A stretch of DNA of 64,000 nucleotides from an uncultured Clostridia bacterium (GCA_947595585.1 CANQET010000009.1:1-64000), one strand, 5' to 3'; shown: positions 1,133 through 12,197, counted from the first letter of the stretch. Notes: generated by a model not told the origin, from the letters alone. Made by a program: numbers and translations.

Positions 1133-3019
1133 TTATTTCAGATTGCAGATATAATCGATACAATATTGAATTTCTTCAAGGGTAAGCATATCTTTCTTCT
1201 TTTCGGCGTGGACAATACTGTTGCGGCACATCCGAAGTTTTTGAAGATATTTTACAAATTTGGCTTCTTGATTATATCCCCAACCGTCGTCCTCTTGTCC
1301 GTGTTGCGAGCAATACTTATCGAGCATTTCCGAAAAGTCGCCTTCGTAATGGTACGAGGAACGAAGGATCGCTTCCAACCGAACACACAGCTTGATGATG
1401 ACAATTTCCGTGTTGCCTTTTTTGAGTTCGGATTCAAAATATTCTTGCGTCAATTCGTTGACGGCTTTGATTTTTTCCTCTTCAAAGGAGCAATCGGAAA
1501 TGACCTGTTGCCGATACTTTGCAAAATAATCAATGATATATGCGATATTCACAAAGTCTGTATTGGTGTACGAATAAATCGGCGTCGCGCTTCGCAAAAT
1601 CAACTTTTTATCATTTGTAGAAGAGGCAAATGGATGAGGATATCCACCATATGCGGATTTTACATAAATGGAAGCAATTTCTTTTTCAATCAAGCGTTCG
1701 TCATACTTCATAACGGCTCTTGCAAGGCTATCGTTTTTGCTATCTACGGCATATTCAAACAGCGCTCGCCATTGCTTATTTTGGAACATTCTGCAAAGCG
1801 GCTCAATCGGATGGATATCATGCGTTGCGAGCGCTTTCTTGATGAGTTGCAAATTATTTGTAGCAAGCAGTTCGTCAATGTTGATGATCCCGTCGTGAAC
1901 GGTAGATTGAATGGTCAATTCATCCTGCGTTACCGACTTGTCCGCCTTTAATTTTGCCATGCGGATCTCATATTCCGAAGCAATATACGGCTTAAAATCG
2001 TAATATGCTTGAATCGCTCTGTTAATATCGTCGAACTCCTTAAAAAGAGCGAAATCGCCTTTTTCAAGCGCGAGCTTAATGGTTTCTTCCAAAATTCGGA
2101 CTAATCCATGCCCCTTGTTACCGCCCGCCGCCATAAAGAAGAAATTCGGGGCATAATTTAATTCGCCATTATATCTGTCACGCACCAATTTCATATTATC
2201 ATAGGCATATTGATTATTCTCTACGGAGAGAGCCAAAAGTCTGCGTAACATTTTTTCATTGTTGTGAAGATAACTTTGATGAATCAAATACGGAAAAACA
2301 TGATACCAAACACATTGACGGTTGGGTTGCTTCCCCAAAAGGACACCGAAAGTATCTTCATTGATACGCTTGTCACAGACGATCGTTTCAAAAATATCGT
2401 CTGTCAAAAGACAGGAAAGTTTTGCCGAATACTCGCCTTCACGGTTGAATTTTTCCGCAATCGCTTGCGGTGCAAGCATTAAAAGTTGTGTTTCGGTTTC
2501 AAACTTCCACCGTGCAGAATAGCTTCTTCCGAGGCTAAATTCCGCTCCGCACAGTAAATCGAGGCGGTTCGTCAAAATCGATAGCTTAATTGCATCGAGA
2601 ATTGGAAATTTGGCGATACTTCCCTTTTGGGATTCGCAGAGTTTTACAAAGACATTAAAACTCTGATATTGCAGAATGTAATCCACAAGCGACTTTCCTT
2701 GCTCGTCTTTATGATTGATATCGATACCGTCGAGCATGGCTGGATTGTCATTCTTGGCGCAAAGCTCGGCTTTGGAAATCGTAATGACTTCCCTTTCTGG
2801 TTCTTTCCCCGTCATGATGTAATCGATACTCACACCGAAAAGTTCTGCAATCGCGGGGAAAAATTCAATGCTTGGCGCGCCGTTATCCTTTTCCCATTTA
2901 CTGACCGCTTTATCACTGACCTGCAACTTTTCTGCAAGCTCCGCCTGCGTCCAACCTTTTGATTTGCGAAGCTCGGCAATCGTTTTTCCGATACTGTGCT
3001 TTTTACTAAAAATACCCAT
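1133..3019 (-). CDS. XRE-family HTH protein with long helical middle and C-terminal HEPN-like domain
   Basis: start refined to MGIFSKKHSIGKTIAELRKSKGWTQAELAEKLQVSDKAVSKWEKDNG (HTH_3) with ggagg RBS; C-terminal RMCRNSIVHAEKK (Rx4H) at 1208-1225. Confidence 0.85.
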   Translation of the reverse strand: MGIFSKKHSIGKTIAELRKSKGWTQAELAEKLQVSDKAVSKWEKDNGAPSIEFFPAIAELFGVSIDYIMTGKEPEREVITISKAELCAKNDNPAMLDGIDINHKDEQGKSLVDYILQYQSFNVFVKLCESQKGSIAKFPILDAIKLSILTNRLDLLCGAEFSLGRSYSARWKFETETQLLMLAPQAIAEKFNREGEYSAKLSCLLTDDIFETIVCDKRINEDTFGVLLGKQPNRQCVWYHVFPYLIHQSYLHNNEKMLRRLLALSVENNQYAYDNMKLVRDRYNGELNYAPNFFFMAAGGNKGHGLVRILEETIKLALEKGDFALFKEFDDINRAIQAYYDFKPYIASEYEIRMAKLKADKSVTQDELTIQSTVHDGIINIDELLATNNLQLIKKALATHDIHPIEPLCRMFQNKQWRALFEYAVDSKNDSLARAVMKYDERLIEKEIASIYVKSAYGGYPHPFASSTNDKKLILRSATPIYSYTNTDFVNIAYIIDYFAKYRQQVISDCSFEEEKIKAVNELTQEYFESELKKGNTEIVIIKLCVRLEAILRSSYHYEGDFSEMLDKYCSQHGQEDDGWGYNQEAKFVKYLQKLRMCRNSIVHAEKKKDMLTLEEIQYCIDYICNLK

Positions 3020-3123
3020 AAATGTCCTCCTGTGTAGGCTCATTATAGCTTTTTGTGCCGAAAAAGTAAACCTACTTCTTTTTGAGTGGGCTTGTCCGTT
3101 TTCCGTGCGCCACACAATAAAAC

Positions 3124-3138
3124 TCTACGATTAGTAGA
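3124..3138. promoter_or_regulatory. candidate operator palindrome TCTAC-gatta-GTAGA abutting the -10 box
   Basis: 5-bp perfect arms immediately downstream of the -10 of the HTH gene promoter. Confidence 0.4.
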
Positions 3139-3167
3139 ATTATAGCACAAAGCGATATGCTTGTCAA
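3139..3167 (-). promoter_or_regulatory. sigmaA-type promoter of the HTH/HEPN operon
   Basis: TTGACA - 17 nt - TATAAT on minus strand. Confidence 0.8.
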
Positions 3168-3337
3168 TATCTATGGCGGAAGGAATCTTTAAGCTACCAA
3201 AAGATGCTTTAAGCGGCTGTTGCTGTTTTTGCAGTTACGTTGGAAATGAAAACAGCGGGGCGGGAAAATGCCCTCACTGTCTTTTACAATAAAAATGGGG
3301 CGCAAGTTTAGTTCAACTTACGTCCCACTTGGCGCGC

Positions 3338-3389
3338 CATGGAAAGGCACCCGCGAAGGGGTGCCTTTCTTCATGGCGCAGAAGACGAG
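3338..3389. repeat. 52-bp direct repeat copy 1 containing hairpin AAAGGCACC...GGTGCCTTT
   Basis: identical to 3554-3605. Confidence 0.9.
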
Positions 3390-3553
3390 CAGAAAGAAAT
3401 CGCGTACGAGTTCGCCCCGACCGAGGCTTCTATTTGTGCTACTAAGGTCGGCACAAGCGTTCCGAATAAGATTCTCTGAAGCGCTTCCGCTCATAACGCG
3501 AAGTAATCTCGTCTTCTGAGATTTCTCGCTACGCTCGAAATGACGGGGCACAG

Positions 3554-3605
3554 CATGGAAAGGCACCCGCGAAGGGGTGCCTTTCTTCATGGCGCAGAAG
3601 ACGAG
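3554..3605. repeat. 52-bp direct repeat copy 2
   Basis: identical to 3338-3389. Confidence 0.9.
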
Positions 3606-3623
3606 AAAACTATGCGGCGGAGC

Positions 3624-3652
3624 TTGACTTTTCGCGGGGAGCTCGATATAAT
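3624..3652 (+). promoter_or_regulatory. sigmaA-type promoter of thioesterase gene
   Basis: TTGACT - 17 nt - TATAAT. Confidence 0.7.
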
Positions 3653-3702
3653 AGAAATCAAGCGCGGGCGGCAAAAGCCAAGAGCGCTTCGGGGGGATAC
3701 GT

Positions 3703-4209
3703 ATGAAAGTCGTTTGTAAGCAAAGAAACAGCAAGATGTGTGCGATCTGCGGGCTCGATAATACCTTCGGCGTCCGTGCGCCCTTCTATTCCATGGAGGA
3801 CGGTAGCGTGGCCTCCCTCTTCCGCTTCCGCGAAGAGCATCAGAGCTATCCCGGCAGGGTGCACGGCGGGCTCATCACCGCCATGCTCGACGAAATGGGG
3901 CTACGTGCCCTCTGGGCGATGGAAGGCGGCGAATTCACCTACGGCGTGACGCTCTCGCTCGAGACGAAGTACCGCAAACCCGTGCCCTACGGGGAGCCGC
4001 TCATCGGGCAGGGGAAGATCGTGAAAGAGACGGGGAACTTCCTCACCGCGGAGTGCTGTATCATGAATGAAGCGCATACCGTGCTCGCCAATGCGACGAT
4101 CAAATACCTCAAACTCACACCGCAGCAGATCCAAAGCGGGGTGAACGAACACGAGGAGATGTGTTACCTCATCGAAGACGGCGTATTTGAGATCGATTTG
4201 CCCGCCTGA
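3703..4209 (+). CDS. PaaI-family hotdog-fold thioesterase
   Basis: ORF with YPGRVHGGLITAMLDEMG motif; may start at 3736 (MCAICG...). Confidence 0.75.
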   Translation: MKVVCKQRNSKMCAICGLDNTFGVRAPFYSMEDGSVASLFRFREEHQSYPGRVHGGLITAMLDEMGLRALWAMEGGEFTYGVTLSLETKYRKPVPYGEPLIGQGKIVKETGNFLTAECCIMNEAHTVLANATIKYLKLTPQQIQSGVNEHEEMCYLIEDGVFEIDLPA

Positions 4210-4250
4210 GTGCGCGTTTTTCTTACCCCATGTATCACTTTTATACTTTC

Positions 4251-4274
4251 AGCACCCTCCTCGGGTGCTTTTTT
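4251..4274 (+). terminator. Rho-independent terminator after the thioesterase gene
   Basis: AGCACCC-tcctc-GGGTGCT-TTTTTT. Confidence 0.85.
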
Positions 4275-4425
4275 GGTATTCTGAATACGTCATGCGGGTG
4301 AGGGAAATACGAAGTCCGCTACCCCCTCCGCGGTTTATCCCAAGCAATACCCCCCTCCATTGGAGGGGGTGGCGCTTGGGATGAACCGTATCGGGAGTAC
4401 GCGCGAGGCCAATACGAAGTCCAAC

Positions 4426-4500
4426 CCTCATACCGAGCGTAGCGAGTGTATCTTAAGATCCGCTCACTTCGCTACGCTTCGTTCGGGATGAGGTCGCTCA
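4426..4500. repeat. intergenic repeat module D (island 2)
   Basis: ctcat-ccgagcgtagcg...ttcgggatgaggtcgctca; related copies at 6165, 12442, 58949. Confidence 0.8.
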
Positions 4501-4521
4501 TCCTGTGCAACAACAGTAACC

Positions 4522-4717
4522 GTCAAACTGCGGAGAAGCAAGCAAGACAAGGAGAACGAGCATTTCCGACGGGAGTGTACTTTGTCGTACACGACCACCC
4601 CGCGCGCACTTCTAATTCTCTAAGCGCGGCACGAGCCCCCAAGGGCGAAGTAGGAAAGCGCAGTTCGACACAGTATTGCGCCGCTTATCCGCAGTTCGAG
4701 GGTACGAAGTCCAACAA
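4522..4717. repeat. intergenic repeat module E (island 2)
   Basis: gtcaaactgcggagaagcaagcaagacaag...ttatccgcagttcg...tacgaagtcc; copies at 56631 and 59440, fragment at 27532. Confidence 0.85.
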
Positions 4718-4760
4718 AGCAAAAAGGTATAAATTGGGGGAGAGGGGCAATAATTTCCCC

Positions 4761-5288
4761 ATGAAAAAATTCGCAATTATCAGTTTACTTCTTCTCACTG
4801 CCTTCGGCATCTCCCTGTTTGCGGGCGCCACCAAGCCTACCGAGGCGGCCTCTTCGTATCTTCGCATACATATCCGTGCCGATTCCAACGACCCCGCCGC
4901 GCAATCGGTGAAGCTTCGCGTGCGCGACGCCGTCGTCGAATACCTCACCCCCATCGTTGCGAATTGTGCGACGAAGCAGGCTTCCCTCGATGCGATCGGC
5001 GCAAGGCTGAGCGATATCGAGGGCGTTGCGGAGGGCGTACTTCGCCAAAACGGCTATACGTACGGAGCCCGTGCGCGCCTCAAGAAAGAGGAGTTCCCCA
5101 CCCGTGTTTACGACGGCGTCACCCTCGATGCAGGCGTATACGACGCCCTCATCCTCGAACTCGGCACGGGCAAGGGGGATAATTGGTGGTGCGTCGTCTA
5201 TCCTCCCCTCTGCTTTACGGGCGGGCATGCGAATATCGTCTACCGCAGCAAGATCGCCGAGATCGTGGCAAGATTCTTCGGAAAATGA
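4761..5288 (+). CDS. spoIIR: stage II sporulation protein R
   Basis: MKKFAIISLLLLTAFG signal, LRIHIRADSNDPAAQSVKLRVRDAVVEYLTP hallmark; upstream part of the 280-aa ORF is repeat DNA. Confidence 0.85.
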   Translation: MKKFAIISLLLLTAFGISLFAGATKPTEAASSYLRIHIRADSNDPAAQSVKLRVRDAVVEYLTPIVANCATKQASLDAIGARLSDIEGVAEGVLRQNGYTYGARARLKKEEFPTRVYDGVTLDAGVYDALILELGTGKGDNWWCVVYPPLCFTGGHANIVYRSKIAEIVARFFGK

Positions 5289-5310
5289 AAAATGAAGAAT
5301 GAAGAATGTG
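5282..5310. repeat. module H: low-complexity (aatgaaga)n element overlapping the spoIIR stop codon
   Basis: gaaaatgaaaaatgaagaatgaagaatg; copies at 28013-28056 (reverse) and 58738-58795. Confidence 0.8.
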
Positions 5311-5513
5311 GTACGTCATTTCGACGACCATAGGGAGGAGAAATCTCGGTATGGCATCCGAACAGGCATTCGAAATACGTCATTCTGAGCGAAGCCCGTT
5401 AGGGCGAAGTCGAAGAATCGCAATAGTCTTAGCCTCATATTGTAGCTCATATATAAGATTAAGACTGCGGCGACCCTTCAACTACGTTCAGGGTGACGTG
5501 ATTAGAAGCACCG

Positions 5514-5565
5514 CCCCCCACCACCGCTACGCGGAGCCTCCCCCCGAAGGGGGTAGGCCTTGCGC
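5514..5565. repeat. module F copy 1
   Basis: ccccccaccaccgctacgcggagcctccccccgaagggggtaggccttgcg; second copy 6271-6325. Confidence 0.85.
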
Positions 5566-5588
5566 TCTGAATGAACCCCGTCGTTTCC

Positions 5589-5634
5589 CGCCCACCCCCC
5601 TACCCCCCTCCAATGGAGGGGGTATCGCTTGGGA
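5589..5634. repeat. module B (C/G-rich hairpin, acccccctacccccctccaatggagggggtatcgcttggga)
   Basis: repeated in every major island. Confidence 0.9.
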
Positions 5635-5675
5635 TTGGCCGTGACGGATGGGGGGCAAAGGGAATGGAGTGGAGC

Positions 5676-5849
5676 ACGTCATTTCGAACGTAGTGAGAAA
5701 TCTCAAGTAGAATTAAGACTAAGGCGATTCTTACTTCGCCTAACGGCTCGTGCCGCGCTTAGAGAATTAGAAATGCGCGCGGGGCGGCAAGCTCAGAATG
5801 ACGTAATTAGAACAAGATTCCTCCTCCCTACGGTCGTCGGAATGACGTA
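5676..5849. repeat. module A, long composite copy with internal insert
   Basis: acgtcatttcgaacgtagtgagaaatctc...ggaatgacgta. Confidence 0.85.
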
Positions 5850-5872
5850 TTGATGTGCCCCTACGCAGTCCA

Positions 5873-5987
5873 TCCCCTTGCTTCCCCTTTTAGGGGAAGT
5901 ACCCGCATCGCGGGGGAAGGGGTTTCAAAACCCCTCAGCCGCGTCTCACGCCGCGACAGCTCCCCTACGAGGGGAGCCAAGGGGCGC
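5873..5987. repeat. module C (about 115 bp)
   Basis: tccccttgcttccccttttaggggaagtacccgc...cccctcagccgcgtctcacgccgcgacagctcccctacgaggggagccaagggg. Confidence 0.9.
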
Positions 5988-6002
5988 GTGTGATACGCGC
6001 GC

Positions 6003-6075
6003 ACGTCATTTCGAACGTAGTGAGAAATCTCACCCTTGAGATTCCTCACCCCCCCTGGGGGTTCGGAATGACGTA
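6003..6075. repeat. module A canonical copy (73 bp)
   Basis: ACGTCATTTCGAAC...GTTCGGAATGACGT nested imperfect palindrome with GAGAAATCTC/GAGATTCCTC. Confidence 0.95.
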
Positions 6076-6096
6076 CTGAGGGGCTCCGTCGTATTC

Positions 6097-6142
6097 CGCC
6101 CACCCCCCTACCCCCCTCCATTGGAGGGGGTATCGCTTGGAA
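6097..6142. repeat. module B copy
   Basis: cacccccctacccccctccattggagggggtatcgcttggaa. Confidence 0.9.
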
Positions 6143-6164
6143 TAGGCTCCTACGCAGTCCGTCC

Positions 6165-6245
6165 CTCATCCCGAACGAAGCGTAGCGGAGTGAGCGGATC
6201 TTAAGATTCACTCGCCCCTAACGGGGCTCGGAATGAGGTCGCTCA
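6165..6245. repeat. module D copy
   Basis: ctcatcccgaacgaagcgtagcggagtgagcggatcttaagattc...cggaatgaggtcgctca. Confidence 0.9.
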
Positions 6246-6270
6246 TGATGTGCCCCGTCGTCTTCCTTGC

Positions 6271-6325
6271 CTCCCCCACCACCGCCTACGGCGGAGCCTC
6301 CCCCCGAAGGGGGTAGGCCTTGCGT
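6271..6325. repeat. module F copy 2
   Basis: see 5514-5565. Confidence 0.85.
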
Positions 6326-6464
6326 TTTTGATGGGGGTGGAAGATTTTTGAAGAACTTTTTCAAAATTAAATATTATGTGACAAATTACGTCACAAATTT
6401 CTTGAATGGGCAGTGGAGATATAAGATAATAAGGTGAAATAATAAAAATTTTTTCCAAAAGAGA

Positions 6465-6493
6465 TTGACAATCTATTGTTTTTCCCGTACAAT
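6465..6493 (+). promoter_or_regulatory. sigmaA-type promoter of the prepilin operon
   Basis: TTGACA - 17 nt - TACAAT. Confidence 0.8.
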
Positions 6494-6547
6494 GGGAATG
6501 CAATGAAACGTTTTTGCAAAGCAAATCATAGATCCAAAGGAGGACCG

Positions 6548-7153
6548 ATGCACAAATTGCGGCAACAACGGGGAGTCTCTATCCTGATCGCACTCCTCAT
6601 CTTTTTGCTCGTCGCGCTGACGGGCACGGCGGTTCTCACGATGTCTGCCTCCAACGCGGGGCGCTTCGTCCATGCGCGGGAAGACCAGCAGCGCTATCTC
6701 TCCGTCGCCTCCGCCGTCCGTCTTCTGAAGGATGAGCTGCGTCCGCACGCCGTCACCGTGACGATCGACCCCGCCGCCCCCATGGCATTCGGGGAAGACG
6801 ACGGCATCGAAGTCGTACACCGCGGAAGCGCGCTCTTCGGCAAGATGGACGCCCTCTCCGCACACTGCAAAGAAAAGGCGCTCTCGGATATGACGGGCGC
6901 CCAAACGGTCGCAAGTCCCTTTTCCGCACACGTCACCGAATTTTCGCTCACCGTTCTCCCCGACGGTGAGGATAGCGGCCTCTCCGAGCGGATCGGCAAA
7001 GTGGACGTGCGGCTCGAGATCGACAACGAGACCTCCAATATGGTCTTCACCCTTTGGCACAGCGGGACGGCGGGCAACAACTACCGCACGCGCATGACCG
7101 TACGCCATATCGGCTATGTCGGGGGGGGGGGGGGGGACGACCTCTACCTATGA
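6548..7153 (+). CDS. pilus-assembly/PilX-like prepilin-type protein; 3' end apparently frameshifted at a G16 tract (restored frame would end at 7220)
   Basis: MHKLRQQRGVSILIALLIFLLVALTGTAVLTMSASNAGR; aaaggagga RBS; G16 at 7121-7136. Confidence 0.8.
   Translation: MHKLRQQRGVSILIALLIFLLVALTGTAVLTMSASNAGRFVHAREDQQRYLSVASAVRLLKDELRPHAVTVTIDPAAPMAFGEDDGIEVVHRGSALFGKMDALSAHCKEKALSDMTGAQTVASPFSAHVTEFSLTVLPDGEDSGLSERIGKVDVRLEIDNETSNMVFTLWHSGTAGNNYRTRMTVRHIGYVGGGGGDDLYL
7121..7136 (+). repeat. G16 homopolymer inside a prepilin gene
   Basis: 16 consecutive G residues in the given sequence. Confidence 0.95.
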
Positions 7154-7216
7154 AAAAGTCTTCCGCTGGGACGCAGATCATGCCGTCGTCGAACTTCTTC
7201 AGGGAGGTACGGCAGC

Positions 7217-7540
7217 ATGAAACGCATCCGCAGAAAACTTTCCTCCCGCAGGGGCGAGACGCTCATTGAGCTCCTCGTCAGCATCATGATCATCGCCCTC
7301 TCGGCCTTTCTTCTCGTGATGATGTATGAGGCCTCGGGCAAGATCAACCTCGCAGCGCGGAAGATGGACGACGACCTCTACCAATCGGTGACCGAGATCG
7401 GCAACCACACGGGCGAGGCCCAAAAGGGCAAAGTACAATACGAGATCCAAGACGATTTCGAAGCAAGACCGGGCGAGATCGAAGTGGAGATCTTCTCCGA
7501 CGACACCGTCGTCACCTATTCAAAACCGACTACGCCGTGA
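7217..7540 (+). CDS. type IV prepilin-like protein (107 aa)
   Basis: RRGETLIELLVSIMIIALSAFL N-methylation motif. Confidence 0.8.
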   Translation: MKRIRRKLSSRRGETLIELLVSIMIIALSAFLLVMMYEASGKINLAARKMDDDLYQSVTEIGNHTGEAQKGKVQYEIQDDFEARPGEIEVEIFSDDTVVTYSKPTTP

Positions 7541-7557
7541 GCGCAAGGAGCATTCTT

Positions 7558-8112
7558 ATGAAACCAAACCGTTGGAAGAAGCTCCGAGCGGGCTTCACGC
7601 TTGCGGAGACGCTGATCGCCGTCGCGATCCTTGCCCTCGTCTCCTCTGCCTGCGTCACACTCTCCGCGACGATCCTCGGCACCAAGGCCGAGATGATCGA
7701 AGTCGGCAAGTGCCAATCGCTGGCCTCCACCGCCGTCATGACGATCGCCGATGAGATCCGCTATGGGCAGAACATCCGCTGCGACGGCGATAAGATCGTG
7801 ATCGACAGCATGAACTTCGGCGCGGGAACGCATTTCGCGGCCGAAGGCGGAAAGATCGTGGCAAAGAACAACGGGAAGGAGCCCTATGCCCTCCTCCCCG
7901 AAAAATATTACGGCACACTGACCGTCTCGAAGCTGACCCTCGAGCGGGTGAACCTCGCCGCCGCCCCCGAAGAAGGGGCGGAAGCCGAAGCGGACGAGGC
8001 GGCTTCCGTCGCAGTGCAGTATGCCGTAAAAATCTCCATCACCGTAAACGGCAGCGGCGGGAGCCTCTACTCCACCGAGATGACGGTCCCCGCGCTCAAC
8101 GGGATCCAATGA
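7558..8112 (+). CDS. type IV prepilin-like protein
   Basis: RAGFTLAETLIAVAILALVSSACVTLS N-methylation motif; internal start refined to MKPNRWKK. Confidence 0.8.
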   Translation: MKPNRWKKLRAGFTLAETLIAVAILALVSSACVTLSATILGTKAEMIEVGKCQSLASTAVMTIADEIRYGQNIRCDGDKIVIDSMNFGAGTHFAAEGGKIVAKNNGKEPYALLPEKYYGTLTVSKLTLERVNLAAAPEEGAEAEADEAASVAVQYAVKISITVNGSGGSLYSTEMTVPALNGIQ

Positions 8113-8129
8113 GGCGGAGGGAGGAGACC

Positions 8130-11100
8130 ATGAAACATAGCATAAGGCATAGGCACATACACCGCACGCGGGGCTTCACATTGATGGAGGCCCTTATCGT
8201 CGTTGCGATCATTTCCATTTTGTTGGGGCTTGCGGTCCCCAATGTCATCTCGTATTCCCGCAGTCTGAAGCTCACTTCGCTCGACGACAGCGCCCACAGC
8301 ATCTTCATGGCGGCACAGAACAACCTCATGGCGATGAAGAATGCGGGCGAGGACCTCATGGACGTTTTCGGGCTCGACGAAGAGACCGACAAGGTCCCCC
8401 TTGCCAAGACGAAGACGGCGGCCATCGGGGAATATTACGCCATCGATAAGAGCAACGGCCTCGAGAAACTTCTGCCGAACCTTTCGATCGATGCAGAACT
8501 GAAGGCCCAAAACTGCGTCGTGGAGATCGATCCGCACACGGGCGCCGTGTATGCCGTTTGGTTCTGGGAAAGCCACCCCTTCCTCTACAGGACGCAGGCC
8601 TACAACACGGCACGGCCCGAGCGCAGCGACCGCCTGCGCAACCATGTGATGGTGGGCTACTACGGCGGCACGCAGATCTTCCGCCCCGAGATCCGCCAGA
8701 CCCCGCTTCCCACCGTGGAGATCGTCAACGCCGAAGAGCTGCTCGTCAATGTCACCGTCTCCGTGGAAGAAGACACGGAAATTTTGCTTACGACCCCCAT
8801 CCTTCTCACCGTCACCCTGACTTCGGAAGGCAAAGACCATGAGATCGTCGCCGATGCTCCCCTCAACTATAGGAATGAAGGCGGGAAGGGCAAGTATTGC
8901 GCCACCCTCGTCCTCGATACGCTGAAAGAAGGGGCGTACCCCACCTTTTTCAATACCTTTATGGGGAAAGACTACGAAAAGCAGGGGATGCGCCTTCGGG
9001 ATTGGAAGGACACCTTCGGGGAGCCCATCGTCACGCCCGGCAAGGACTTCGACCTCACGGTGAAAGTCTGCGTGGAAGAGGACGGCTATCTTCCCCAATA
9101 TGTGTACCATTACGGCGAAAACAGCTTGTTCGCTTCGGTCGAAAAGAGCACGGCGAGGATCGCCTACGGGCGGCATCTGCAGAATTTGGATCCCGCGGTC
9201 TCGGGGGTGAGCTTCATCACCGCCGCAGAGCAGATCGCCTCCGTCGATTTCGACGCCCCGTCCAACGATACAAACCCCGTAAGATCGTGGAAAGATACAT
9301 ATGGGGTGCGAAAATTCCTCCCCATCGTCAATTCTTCTCTCACCCATTACGACGGGAAAAAGCATGAGATCGTTCACCTCTCGATCCAAAAAGAGGAGGG
9401 CGCCGCGGGGCTCTTCAAGACCGTGCAAAGCGGCACTCGCCTCGAGAATATCTACCTCAAAGACGCCGAGATCCACGCCCCGATCGTGGGCGGGCTCGTA
9501 GGAAAAGCGGACGATCTTTCGATCGCGGGCTGCCGCGTCTATCTGACCGAAGAGAGCTCCAAGGCGGAAGGCGCCGCGGCACGGCTCTTTGTGGGTGAGA
9601 CGGTCGGCGGGCTCATCGGAACGAGCGGAGAAGGCGGGCGCGGCGAGCTCAAGATCCATGGAAGCCTTGCGAGCACCAACGAGTTCGGCGATACGGTCGG
9701 CGGGCTCATCGGAATGTGTGAAAATCCCGTCGAGATCGAGAACAGCTATGCCGCAGGCTACCTTACGGGCGCCAAGGCGGGCGGGCTCATCGGCATCGCG
9801 AACGAAACAACTTCCCACGTGACCCTCAAGACGAGCTATGCCGCGGGCGTCATCGCCAAAGGCGAAAAGACGGCGCTCGCGGGCGGGCTCATCGCACAGG
9901 GCAAGCCGCATTCCGCCGAAGATTGCTATGCCGCAGTGCGCTACGATCGGGCGATCATCGAAGCCGTAAAGAACGGAAATAAAATAGAGGTCTACGGCAC
10001 CTTCCGCGGCGACACGGAACACACGGCCGAGTACGTCTCCCAGATGGGGCTCGAATATCGGGACGGCGGGACGCCTATCACCTCGTTTGAGCTCTACGTT
10101 TGGGGCGGCTATCAGCATTTCGACGACCTCCGCGAGGCCAATCCCTACAAACTTCTGCCCGAGACGGAGCATAGATACGGCCTCTCCGAGAAGTACCCCT
10201 ACCGCATGATCCGAGAGGACGGCAAAGACGTGCCGCACTACGGCGATTGGCTCGAAGAGACCGAGGCCTATCTCGTCTACTATGAGCAGTACGACGACAA
10301 AACCTATGGCATCTACGCCGATTACGAACGCTTCAAGACCAACACCCTCCGTGCGAGCGCCTTCGAAGATGAATTGGACGATCGCTCCTACGTGATCGAC
10401 GACGGCTACTCCCTCTTCGTCCTCTCGACGCCCGATAACGACGACGCGCTCAGCTTGGACGTCAGCATCGGCGATAAACCGTATAAATTCGAATTGGAGA
10501 CCTTCCAAGACGTCGACTTCCGCGGCACGAAGGTCAACTGCTCCATGCTCGTCATCAAAGAGCCCGATATCTCCATCAAGAGCAGCTGGACGGAATACGA
10601 CAGCAAGATAGATCCCCTCAACCAGCCCATCCGAACGTATTATACGACGCTCGTCTACAAGATCGTCTACACGGATATCTTCGGCACGACGTATGTGAAC
10701 CCGTATACGACAAAGACCTACTACTTCAACCCCCACTTCGCGTGCGACGTCTTCGAAGATACGCCCACACTCCGTTCGGATGCGAGCGGCGTCTACATTC
10801 CCAAGGCCAAGACGGGGGCGGAGGGCACCCTTTCCGAGAGCGCAGAGCTTCCCGATACGGCACACTACACGGCCGCGGAGGGCGACGTCGTCATCCGCTC
10901 TGCCCGCCACCTCTCCAACCTGCACTGCTACACCAACACGGAATCGGGGATAAGTGGCGTTCATGGCATCGCGGGCGTGAAATCGGCAAACTTCCACCAG
11001 CTCTTCGATATCGACTTTTTGCTGTACGTACAGACGAGGCTTGCGGGCGGCGGAAATTATAACGACAGGATCTACCCCGCGATCACCTACAACGGGCTCT

Positions 11101-12092
11101 ACGACGGGCATGAACACGTCATCCGCAACATCTTCTTGAGCAGACAGGCGATCAAAGACGGCATCGGGCTCTTCGCAAAATCCGTGGGAACGGATCTGAA
11201 AAATATCTTTATTGTCAACCCCGTTGGGTTTGTGAGCGAAAACGACTTCGGCAACTATATGGGCGGGCTCGTCGGCCATATCACGGGCGGCTCCGTCGAG
11301 AACTGCGGCATCTACACCGAGGCGAAGGAAGAAGAGAACGCCTTTGTGACCTACAAGCCCTATTACCGCCACAAGGCCGTCAACAGCAACGATCATACCG
11401 TCGTCCTCGGAGGCCTCATCGGGTATGCCCAAAACTGCAAGATCACGGGCAGCTTTGCCGCGGTGAAGATCTTCGGGCATACGGCGGGCGGCTTCATCGG
11501 GGAGATGGCAAGCGGCACCGTCGTAAAGGACTGCTACGCGGGCGGCTATACGAAATACAACTCGTATTACAGCGAGAAATGGCCGCAAGTGAAGGGGCTT
11601 GATAACGTCGGGGGGTACCCCTCCTATTCCGAGCAAAGCGGCACGGATAGCATCAACGTGGGCGGCGGCGGAACATCTATCATCGACGGAAAGCAATATG
11701 AAGGCTATATCGGCGGCTTTGTCGGGATCGTAGATGAGGGTGCGAGCTTTGAAGGCATCTGCTATTCGACCTGCTCGGTACGCGGTTCCTTCACCGAGCG
11801 GATCGGCCTCTTTGCGGGAAAGACGCCAAGCGGGTATACCACCCGCGCTACGCTCTACTCCGTGGGCGTGATCATCACGGAGGGCGCAACGCCTCAGACT
11901 CTGACTTTGAACGGGAACAAATATTCGTTCTATCAAAAAGGGAAGGCGCGGAACGAATCGTATTTGAAGGCAAAGGCGAACGTCAAGGCCACAGCGCCCA
12001 CGGCCAAGGCCTATCCCTACAACGATGCGCTCAATGGCACGCCCTACCCCTACCTCACCAATCTCCAAAAGCACTACGGCGACTGGGTCTGA
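8130..12092 (+). CDS. very large (1,321 aa from refined start) prepilin/pseudopilin-like protein with GLUG-type repeats
   Basis: RGFTLMEALIVVAIISILLGLAVPNVISYSRS; repeated GGLIG/GGLVG...C/SYAAG units in two blocks; ggagggaggag RBS. Confidence 0.85.
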   Translation: MKHSIRHRHIHRTRGFTLMEALIVVAIISILLGLAVPNVISYSRSLKLTSLDDSAHSIFMAAQNNLMAMKNAGEDLMDVFGLDEETDKVPLAKTKTAAIGEYYAIDKSNGLEKLLPNLSIDAELKAQNCVVEIDPHTGAVYAVWFWESHPFLYRTQAYNTARPERSDRLRNHVMVGYYGGTQIFRPEIRQTPLPTVEIVNAEELLVNVTVSVEEDTEILLTTPILLTVTLTSEGKDHEIVADAPLNYRNEGGKGKYCATLVLDTLKEGAYPTFFNTFMGKDYEKQGMRLRDWKDTFGEPIVTPGKDFDLTVKVCVEEDGYLPQYVYHYGENSLFASVEKSTARIAYGRHLQNLDPAVSGVSFITAAEQIASVDFDAPSNDTNPVRSWKDTYGVRKFLPIVNSSLTHYDGKKHEIVHLSIQKEEGAAGLFKTVQSGTRLENIYLKDAEIHAPIVGGLVGKADDLSIAGCRVYLTEESSKAEGAAARLFVGETVGGLIGTSGEGGRGELKIHGSLASTNEFGDTVGGLIGMCENPVEIENSYAAGYLTGAKAGGLIGIANETTSHVTLKTSYAAGVIAKGEKTALAGGLIAQGKPHSAEDCYAAVRYDRAIIEAVKNGNKIEVYGTFRGDTEHTAEYVSQMGLEYRDGGTPITSFELYVWGGYQHFDDLREANPYKLLPETEHRYGLSEKYPYRMIREDGKDVPHYGDWLEETEAYLVYYEQYDDKTYGIYADYERFKTNTLRASAFEDELDDRSYVIDDGYSLFVLSTPDNDDALSLDVSIGDKPYKFELETFQDVDFRGTKVNCSMLVIKEPDISIKSSWTEYDSKIDPLNQPIRTYYTTLVYKIVYTDIFGTTYVNPYTTKTYYFNPHFACDVFEDTPTLRSDASGVYIPKAKTGAEGTLSESAELPDTAHYTAAEGDVVIRSARHLSNLHCYTNTESGISGVHGIAGVKSANFHQLFDIDFLLYVQTRLAGGGNYNDRIYPAITYNGLYDGHEHVIRNIFLSRQAIKDGIGLFAKSVGTDLKNIFIVNPVGFVSENDFGNYMGGLVGHITGGSVENCGIYTEAKEEENAFVTYKPYYRHKAVNSNDHTVVLGGLIGYAQNCKITGSFAAVKIFGHTAGGFIGEMASGTVVKDCYAGGYTKYNSYYSEKWPQVKGLDNVGGYPSYSEQSGTDSINVGGGGTSIIDGKQYEGYIGGFVGIVDEGASFEGICYSTCSVRGSFTERIGLFAGKTPSGYTTRATLYSVGVIITEGATPQTLTLNGNKYSFYQKGKARNESYLKAKANVKATAPTAKAYPYNDALNGTPYPYLTNLQKHYGDWV

Positions 12093-12107
12093 CCCGAAAA
12101 AACGGCC

Positions 12108-12143
12108 AAGGCCCTGCCCCTTTTGCAAGGGACAGGGCCTTTT
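12108..12143 (+). terminator. hairpin terminator after the prepilin operon
   Basis: AAGGCCCTGCCCCTT-ttgc-AAGGGACAGGGCCTT-tt. Confidence 0.75.
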
Positions 12144-12197
12144 GCTATGTAGAGATTTGGGAATGGAGCACGTCATTTCGCCCCGACCGCAGCGCCC

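Follow-up and report, generated by a model that had tools for sequence, protein, structure and literature searches.

A giant modular prepilin with two GLUG modules in a minor-pilin operon of an uncultured gut Clostridia bacterium, and apparent promoter switches among its relatives

An uncultured Clostridia bacterium encodes a very large protein that begins as a prepilin and continues into GLUG-type repeats, and the locus raises the question of whether such a protein belongs to a pilus and, if so, what it would do there. The window, that is the whole stretch of 64,000 nucleotides analyzed, is contig 9 of a 1.69-Mb draft genome (97% complete); a gene for stage II sporulation protein R (4446-5288) places the host among endospore-forming Firmicutes. 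The giant is the final gene of a four-gene minor-pilin operon (6548-12092), and housekeeping genes on the opposite strand follow downstream. The features of the operon are:

6465-6493, plus strand: strong sigma-70-type promoter-like sequence TTGACA-17-TACAAT without inverted-repeat arms (consensus scan, 11/12 matches)
6536-6543, plus strand: ribosome-binding site AAAGGAGG of the first pilin gene, ATG at 6548 (direct read of the sequence)
6548-7153, plus strand: GspK/PilX-like minor prepilin, 201 aa as assembled, junction RG/VSILIALLIF (NCBIfam, homologues)
7121-7136, plus strand: 16-G tract within the GspK-like gene (homopolymer scan of the genome)
7217-7540, plus strand: small minor prepilin, 107 aa, junction RRG/ETLIELLVSI (N_methyl over cut-off; homologues in related operons)
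7558-8112, plus strand: minor prepilin of GFTL type, 184 aa, junction AG/FTLAETLIAV (N_methyl over cut-off; homologues in related operons)
8130-12092, plus strand: giant modular prepilin, 1,320 aa (stop-free translation, Pfam, homologues, AlphaFold2)
8130-8174, plus strand: leader MKHSIRHRHIHRTRG, 15 residues, positively charged, ending in Gly; predicted PilD cleavage after Gly15, before FTLME
8175-8699, plus strand: pilin module, residues 16-190 (AlphaFold2; profile match to PilA/PilE1/geopilin structures)
8709-9122, plus strand: Ig-like beta-sandwich, residues 194-331, moderate confidence (AlphaFold2 strands)
9342-9995, plus strand: GLUG beta-solenoid 1, residues 405-622 (AlphaFold2, mostly pLDDT 80-95)
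10893-12086, plus strand: GLUG module 2, residues 922-1319, ending in YPY...HYGDW (diverged tandem copy of module 1)

The earlier note had placed the open reading frame correctly but credited it with 1,321 residues; translation gives 1,320 residues plus a stop, the stop codon having been included in the count. A GGAGG-type ribosome site lies directly upstream of the start at 8130, an alternative ATG is present at 8109, and the sense frame has a GC content of 55/41/77% at codon positions 1, 2 and 3. An antisense open reading frame at 8067-12176 (1,369 aa) is longer than the sense frame and was rejected as a mechanical artefact, since the homologues belong to the sense frame, among them a full-length orthologue (L045) with 43-48% identity. 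The possibility that a pilin and an adhesin had been joined by misassembly was rejected as well, because this orthologue and many homologues have the same architecture.

At the leader/mature junction MKHSIRHRHIHRTRG/FTLMEALIVVAIISILLGLAVP, glutamate occupies mature position 5. The N_methyl domain is matched over its curated Pfam cut-off (residues 12-35, E 4.8e-6), and Gly15 and Glu20, the latter being mature Glu5, do not vary among 23 aligned family members, in agreement with the class III prepilin N-terminus originally proposed. The only other Pfam match is one Glug domain over cut-off (residues 1041-1059, E 4.3e-5). The pattern GG[LFIV][IVALF][GA] occurs nine times (residues 454, 493, 524, 551, 585, 1045, 1094, 1120 and 1195), whereas 20,000 shuffles of the residues gave 0.18 on average and never more than 3. 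These sites fall within both of the GLUG-type repeat blocks recognized previously; one of the nine GLUG-like units exceeds the Pfam Glug threshold, the others being weaker relatives.

AlphaFold2 was applied to residues 1-712 together with 23 family members. In this model the N-terminus forms a 54-residue helix (residues 18-71) and an alpha/beta pilin head (mean pLDDT roughly 40-80), followed by the beta-sandwich and by a confidently predicted solenoid built of short strands, and over the N-terminal helix the profile of the family matches type IV pilins of solved structure (PilA/PilE1/geopilin). Module 1 is closed by YPY...HYGDW at residues 689-707. Residues 344-544 and 922-1140 share 28% identity (E 1.7e-10; hhalign 98.3%). 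For residues 700-1320 the prediction was unreliable (pLDDT 38) and was excluded from fold searching; owing to this poor model, a solenoid fold can be ascribed to module 2 only by homology to module 1. In Foldseek searches with the 1-712 model the best matches were IgA1-protease structures (E 1.5e-7), and all six PDB matches at E < 1e-3 were either IgA1 proteases or a Bacteroides protein carrying a putative IgA1 protease annotation. Neither ligand-binding residues nor any known adhesin domain could be recognized in the giant.

The first pilin of the operon lacks Glu5, with Ile at mature position 5. GspK is its sole NCBIfam match (E 1.7e-4, below cut-off), and it is homologous to the corresponding pilins at about 24 related loci. 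The other small pilins each gave weak NCBIfam matches to several families, all below cut-off. The window quartet resembles an HIJK-like tip set, the H/I/J/K assignment resting on weak matches below cut-offs, in which the GspK-like pilin is presumed to be the tip cap. As with the HIJK minor pilins of T4aP and T2SS, four minor pilins are encoded in one operon and one of them is Glu5-less and GspK-related; unlike those sets, this one includes a giant, and its other members are weakly assigned. The quartet is kept at about 20 loci, in the same genus and in other families of the order, in one of two gene orders: as in the window, or with the giant first.

The earlier note had regarded an ordinary signal anchor in a genome devoid of pilus machinery as the contrary outcome. 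Such machinery is present: a single cluster on contig 5, at about 66-76 kb, encodes the extension ATPase PilB (MshEN plus T2SSE), a PilT-like ATPase, PilC, a PilA-like pilin, PilD and PilM. Furthermore, within one genus giants occur in 11 of 16 PilD-positive genomes, defined as those with a bacterial-type prepilin peptidase, versus 1 of 45 PilD-negative genomes (p=1.1e-7); the sole PilD-negative genome carrying a giant is 66% complete, and rechecking part of the PilD-negative genomes with a more sensitive profile yielded no new giant. The machinery, the conserved minor-pilin operon with its E5-less GspK-like pilin and the co-occurrence with PilD mean that the description of the protein as a giant minor pilin is well supported.

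The protein is a member of a larger family. Two further giants are encoded in the same genome, an intact paralogue of 1,251 aa on contig 21 (L018) and another on contig 1 (L019:4760-8669). As assembled, the latter is broken by a frameshift near 5405 and a stop near 5787, and it has no recognized pilin neighbours. When 396 genomes of the order were searched with a profile, 51 gave matches. A search for the combination of a prepilin N-terminus with GLUG repeats had been suggested, and homologues of the giant occur across the order; full-length giants occur in several families, other matches share the pilin module, lengths range from 782 to 5,147 aa, and most homologues retain the operon. The 5,147-aa prepilin-like reading frame (L102:877-16320, minus strand, genome G180) contains GLUG repeats in three groups together with eight or more Flg_new (Listeria-Bacteroides) repeats. 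Another giant prepilin, of 1,884 aa (L049:1270-6921, minus strand, genome G038), weakly matches the Hint (Hedgehog/intein) domain over residues 1648-1783 (E 6e-5, below the Pfam cut-off), which suggests C-terminal self-processing. The window protein as sole query found no match in the contigs of named genomes; with a paralogue profile as query, 24 loci of the contig-21 type (L122-L145) were found among them. All 24 come from bins labelled 'Lapin', French for rabbit, apparently from a rabbit gut project, and this distribution may reflect host restriction or sampling bias, the lineage perhaps being best sampled there.

Taken as a whole, we consider it probable that the giant is a modular minor pilin of a type IV pilus, belonging to an HIJK-like tip complex and bearing ligand-binding solenoids. 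PilD would cut at Gly15, and the long N-terminal helix would then pack in the core of the pilus like that of any other pilin. Together with the other three, smaller pilins of its operon the giant would form an HIJK-like priming complex capped by the GspK-like, E5-less subunit, which would place it at or beside the tip. About 1,100 residues would be held out, consisting of the beta-sandwich and solenoid and then a second such unit; the most likely task of the solenoids would be to bind a ligand, carried by mucus, plant fibre or neighbouring cells, toward which the cell would be drawn by PilT-driven retraction. A tip adhesin is therefore the best reading, in which we infer tip position, ligand binding and retraction, the location and binding by analogy with published HIJK and PilABC tip complexes. 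Filaments grow from tip to base, and at the tip the HIJK-type minor pilins make up a complex whose cap is a Glu5-less subunit (PMC10191384); the bulky modular pilins of S. sanguinis, which bind host proteins and glycans, have been modelled to fit at the tip only (PMC8179133, PMC9934059).

The giant is a 'modular pilin' in the published sense and not a new class. Like PilB and PilC of S. sanguinis, for which a tip complex has been modelled in a monoderm (PMC8179133, PMC9934059), it has a class III leader, a small pilin module and a large C-terminal effector, and as in PilC an Ig-like domain precedes the effector. The S. sanguinis effectors are, in contrast, a vWA or lectin domain and much smaller (PilB has 454 aa when processed), whereas the giant has two GLUG modules, 1,305 aa after cleavage and HIJK-like instead of PilABC neighbours. 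The most extreme multi-domain pilin of Raynaud et al. 2021 has 860 residues (PMC8179133).

A different function has been attached to what may be the same architecture. The Foldseek results would fit a GLUG part that is an M26 IgA1-protease-type peptidase, the pilus then displaying an enzyme, and a weak NCBIfam match to ZmpA (residues 416-550) points the same way. We take IPR011493 to be the GLUG entry. Raynaud et al. 2021 read IPR012902-IPR011493 as a pilin plus predicted M26 peptidase (PMC8179133); this is probably the combination found in the giant, so that the pilin-GLUG architecture was probably catalogued already in 2021 under a peptidase label, in a single clause that, in the text consulted, comes without operon, size, machinery or regulation. 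However, the protease matches fall on the GLUG solenoid region, a Peptidase_M26 domain was not found in the giant by Pfam, and HExxH occurs once, at residue 412 within the GLUG-header motif DGKKHEIVHL, and in 0 of 30 homologues scanned, the closest orthologue included. With neither an M26 domain nor a conserved HExxH, the peptidase reading is largely refuted, and we consider it highly improbable. The best structural matches of the model, the GLUG solenoids of M26 IgA1 proteases (6xja, 7uvl) and of BACOVA_03286 (3n6z), stand in a different protein context, and the giant has no protease domain.

A solenoid-bearing minor pilin, ComZ, is also known from Thermus (PMC8179133); its beta-solenoid is thought to bind DNA, and weak NCBIfam matches to ComGC (E 1e-7), ComGE and ComGD could likewise suggest that the giant is a DNA-binding subunit of a competence pilus. 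These matches are limited to the generic N-terminal helix and lie below cut-off, and multi-copy, diverged paralogues with apparent promoter switches suit surface adhesins better than a conserved DNA receptor, so that a competence role is unlikely. The ComZ solenoid is inserted in the pilin sheet (PMC8179133), whereas that of the giant follows the pilin module and beta-sandwich. The very large size of the giant might instead indicate an adhesin anchored in the membrane by its prepilin leader outside any filament, or a part of a secretion-type pseudopilus. This is an improbable arrangement in our view: the protein is accompanied by three other pilins and co-occurs with PilD, the Glu5 that pilins use in filament packing is invariant in the family alignment, and the retraction-type ATPase points to a pilus rather than a pseudopilus.

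Upstream of paralogous giants, inverted repeats (core GTACATAGA) lie about 120-165 bp apart and enclose one conserved promoter, TTGACT-17-TARAAT. Over 17 armed upstream regions this promoter points toward the giant in six (L018 on contig 21 of the same genome, L046, L054, L092, L094b and L097) and away from it in 11 (L047, L049, L050, L053, L057, L090, L091, L094a, L096, L099 and L100); L048, L051, L052 and L098 have no arms, and their promoter faces the gene. Among significantly similar spacer pairs (threshold 36; shuffles reach at most 25), all 20 same-state pairs align directly and all 26 opposite-state pairs as reverse complements, one of the 26 being trivial because L094a and L094b are a single shared element counted from both sides. 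That element (L094:6239-6440; genome G309, contig 36) is a single invertible-looking promoter between two divergent, complete quartets, with giant a at 2522-6229 on the minus strand and giant b at 6434-9970 on the plus strand; a flip of this promoter would swap expression from one tip operon to the other. At least seven of the elements have a tyrosine recombinase gene next to them. Recombinase relatives are present in 14 of 14 giant-bearing genomes tested and in many giant-less genomes too; the contig 21 locus retains recombinase remnants only, and two intact relatives are encoded elsewhere in the genome. From these sequence comparisons the promoters of the paralogous operons appear to be invertible. 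They recall E. coli fimS and the C. difficile RecV flagellar switch (PMC7446863) in having inverted repeats spaced by about 120-165 bp on either side of one promoter and a nearby recombinase at genes for a surface structure, but differ in standing ahead of T4P tip operons, in being deduced from cross-species comparison and in being absent at the window operon.

A related recombinase gene on contig 20 of the same genome (L167:7327-11361) is followed by 18-nt inverted repeats (8319-8336 and 8471-8488, 134 nt apart) and then by the gene for a 913-aa predicted lipoprotein, possibly another invertible promoter. In the window, no arms of the GTACATAGA type were found, and the repeats that do occur around 5600-6700 do not enclose the promoter at 6465-6493; for want of arms, an invertible promoter at this operon was rejected.

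The window operon carries a different candidate switch. The 16-G tract in the GspK-like gene is the longest G/C run of the genome, in which only one other run reaches 10 or more, and as assembled it shifts translation out of the conserved C-terminal frame. In the -1 frame after the tract, the tail motif of 16 homologues is restored and an ATGA overlap with the next gene results, with a modest gain in profile score (130.3 vs 126.8 bits). The operon may consequently be off, or the assembly wrong, at this point: the tract could act as a slippage switch or could stem from a homopolymer error in the assembly, between which a single assembly cannot discriminate. A G-tract slippage switch is known from the pili of Bifidobacterium breve (PMC9187656), likewise intragenic and within the pilus operon of a gut bacterium; those pili are sortase-dependent, whereas the window encodes a type IV pilus and slippage here is putative.

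A search confined mostly to the open literature gave no earlier account of GLUG with a pilin or of invertible promoters with type IV minor pilins. Relative to that literature, the giant size range and the conservation of the HIJK-like operon are new, as are the evidence against a peptidase and the indications, from comparison of species, that promoters invert at T4P tip operons. We give an even chance to a broader scheme, in which the gut Clostridia of this order would hold a repertoire of giant T4P tips chosen by tyrosine-recombinase promoter flips, turning operons on or off or, at L094, exchanging one tip for another, and in which the window operon would be a fixed-promoter member tuned by 16-G slippage in its tip-cap gene.

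What has been known of modular pilins comes for the most part from domain architectures in databases and from a single, well-studied oral streptococcus. The present family extends them to about 800-5,100 residues, with a conserved four-pilin operon and in multiple copies in uncultured gut Clostridia, and it argues against the peptidase reading of pilin-GLUG fusions. If the switches work as their sequences suggest, flipping of DNA would change what the pili of these bacteria stick to.
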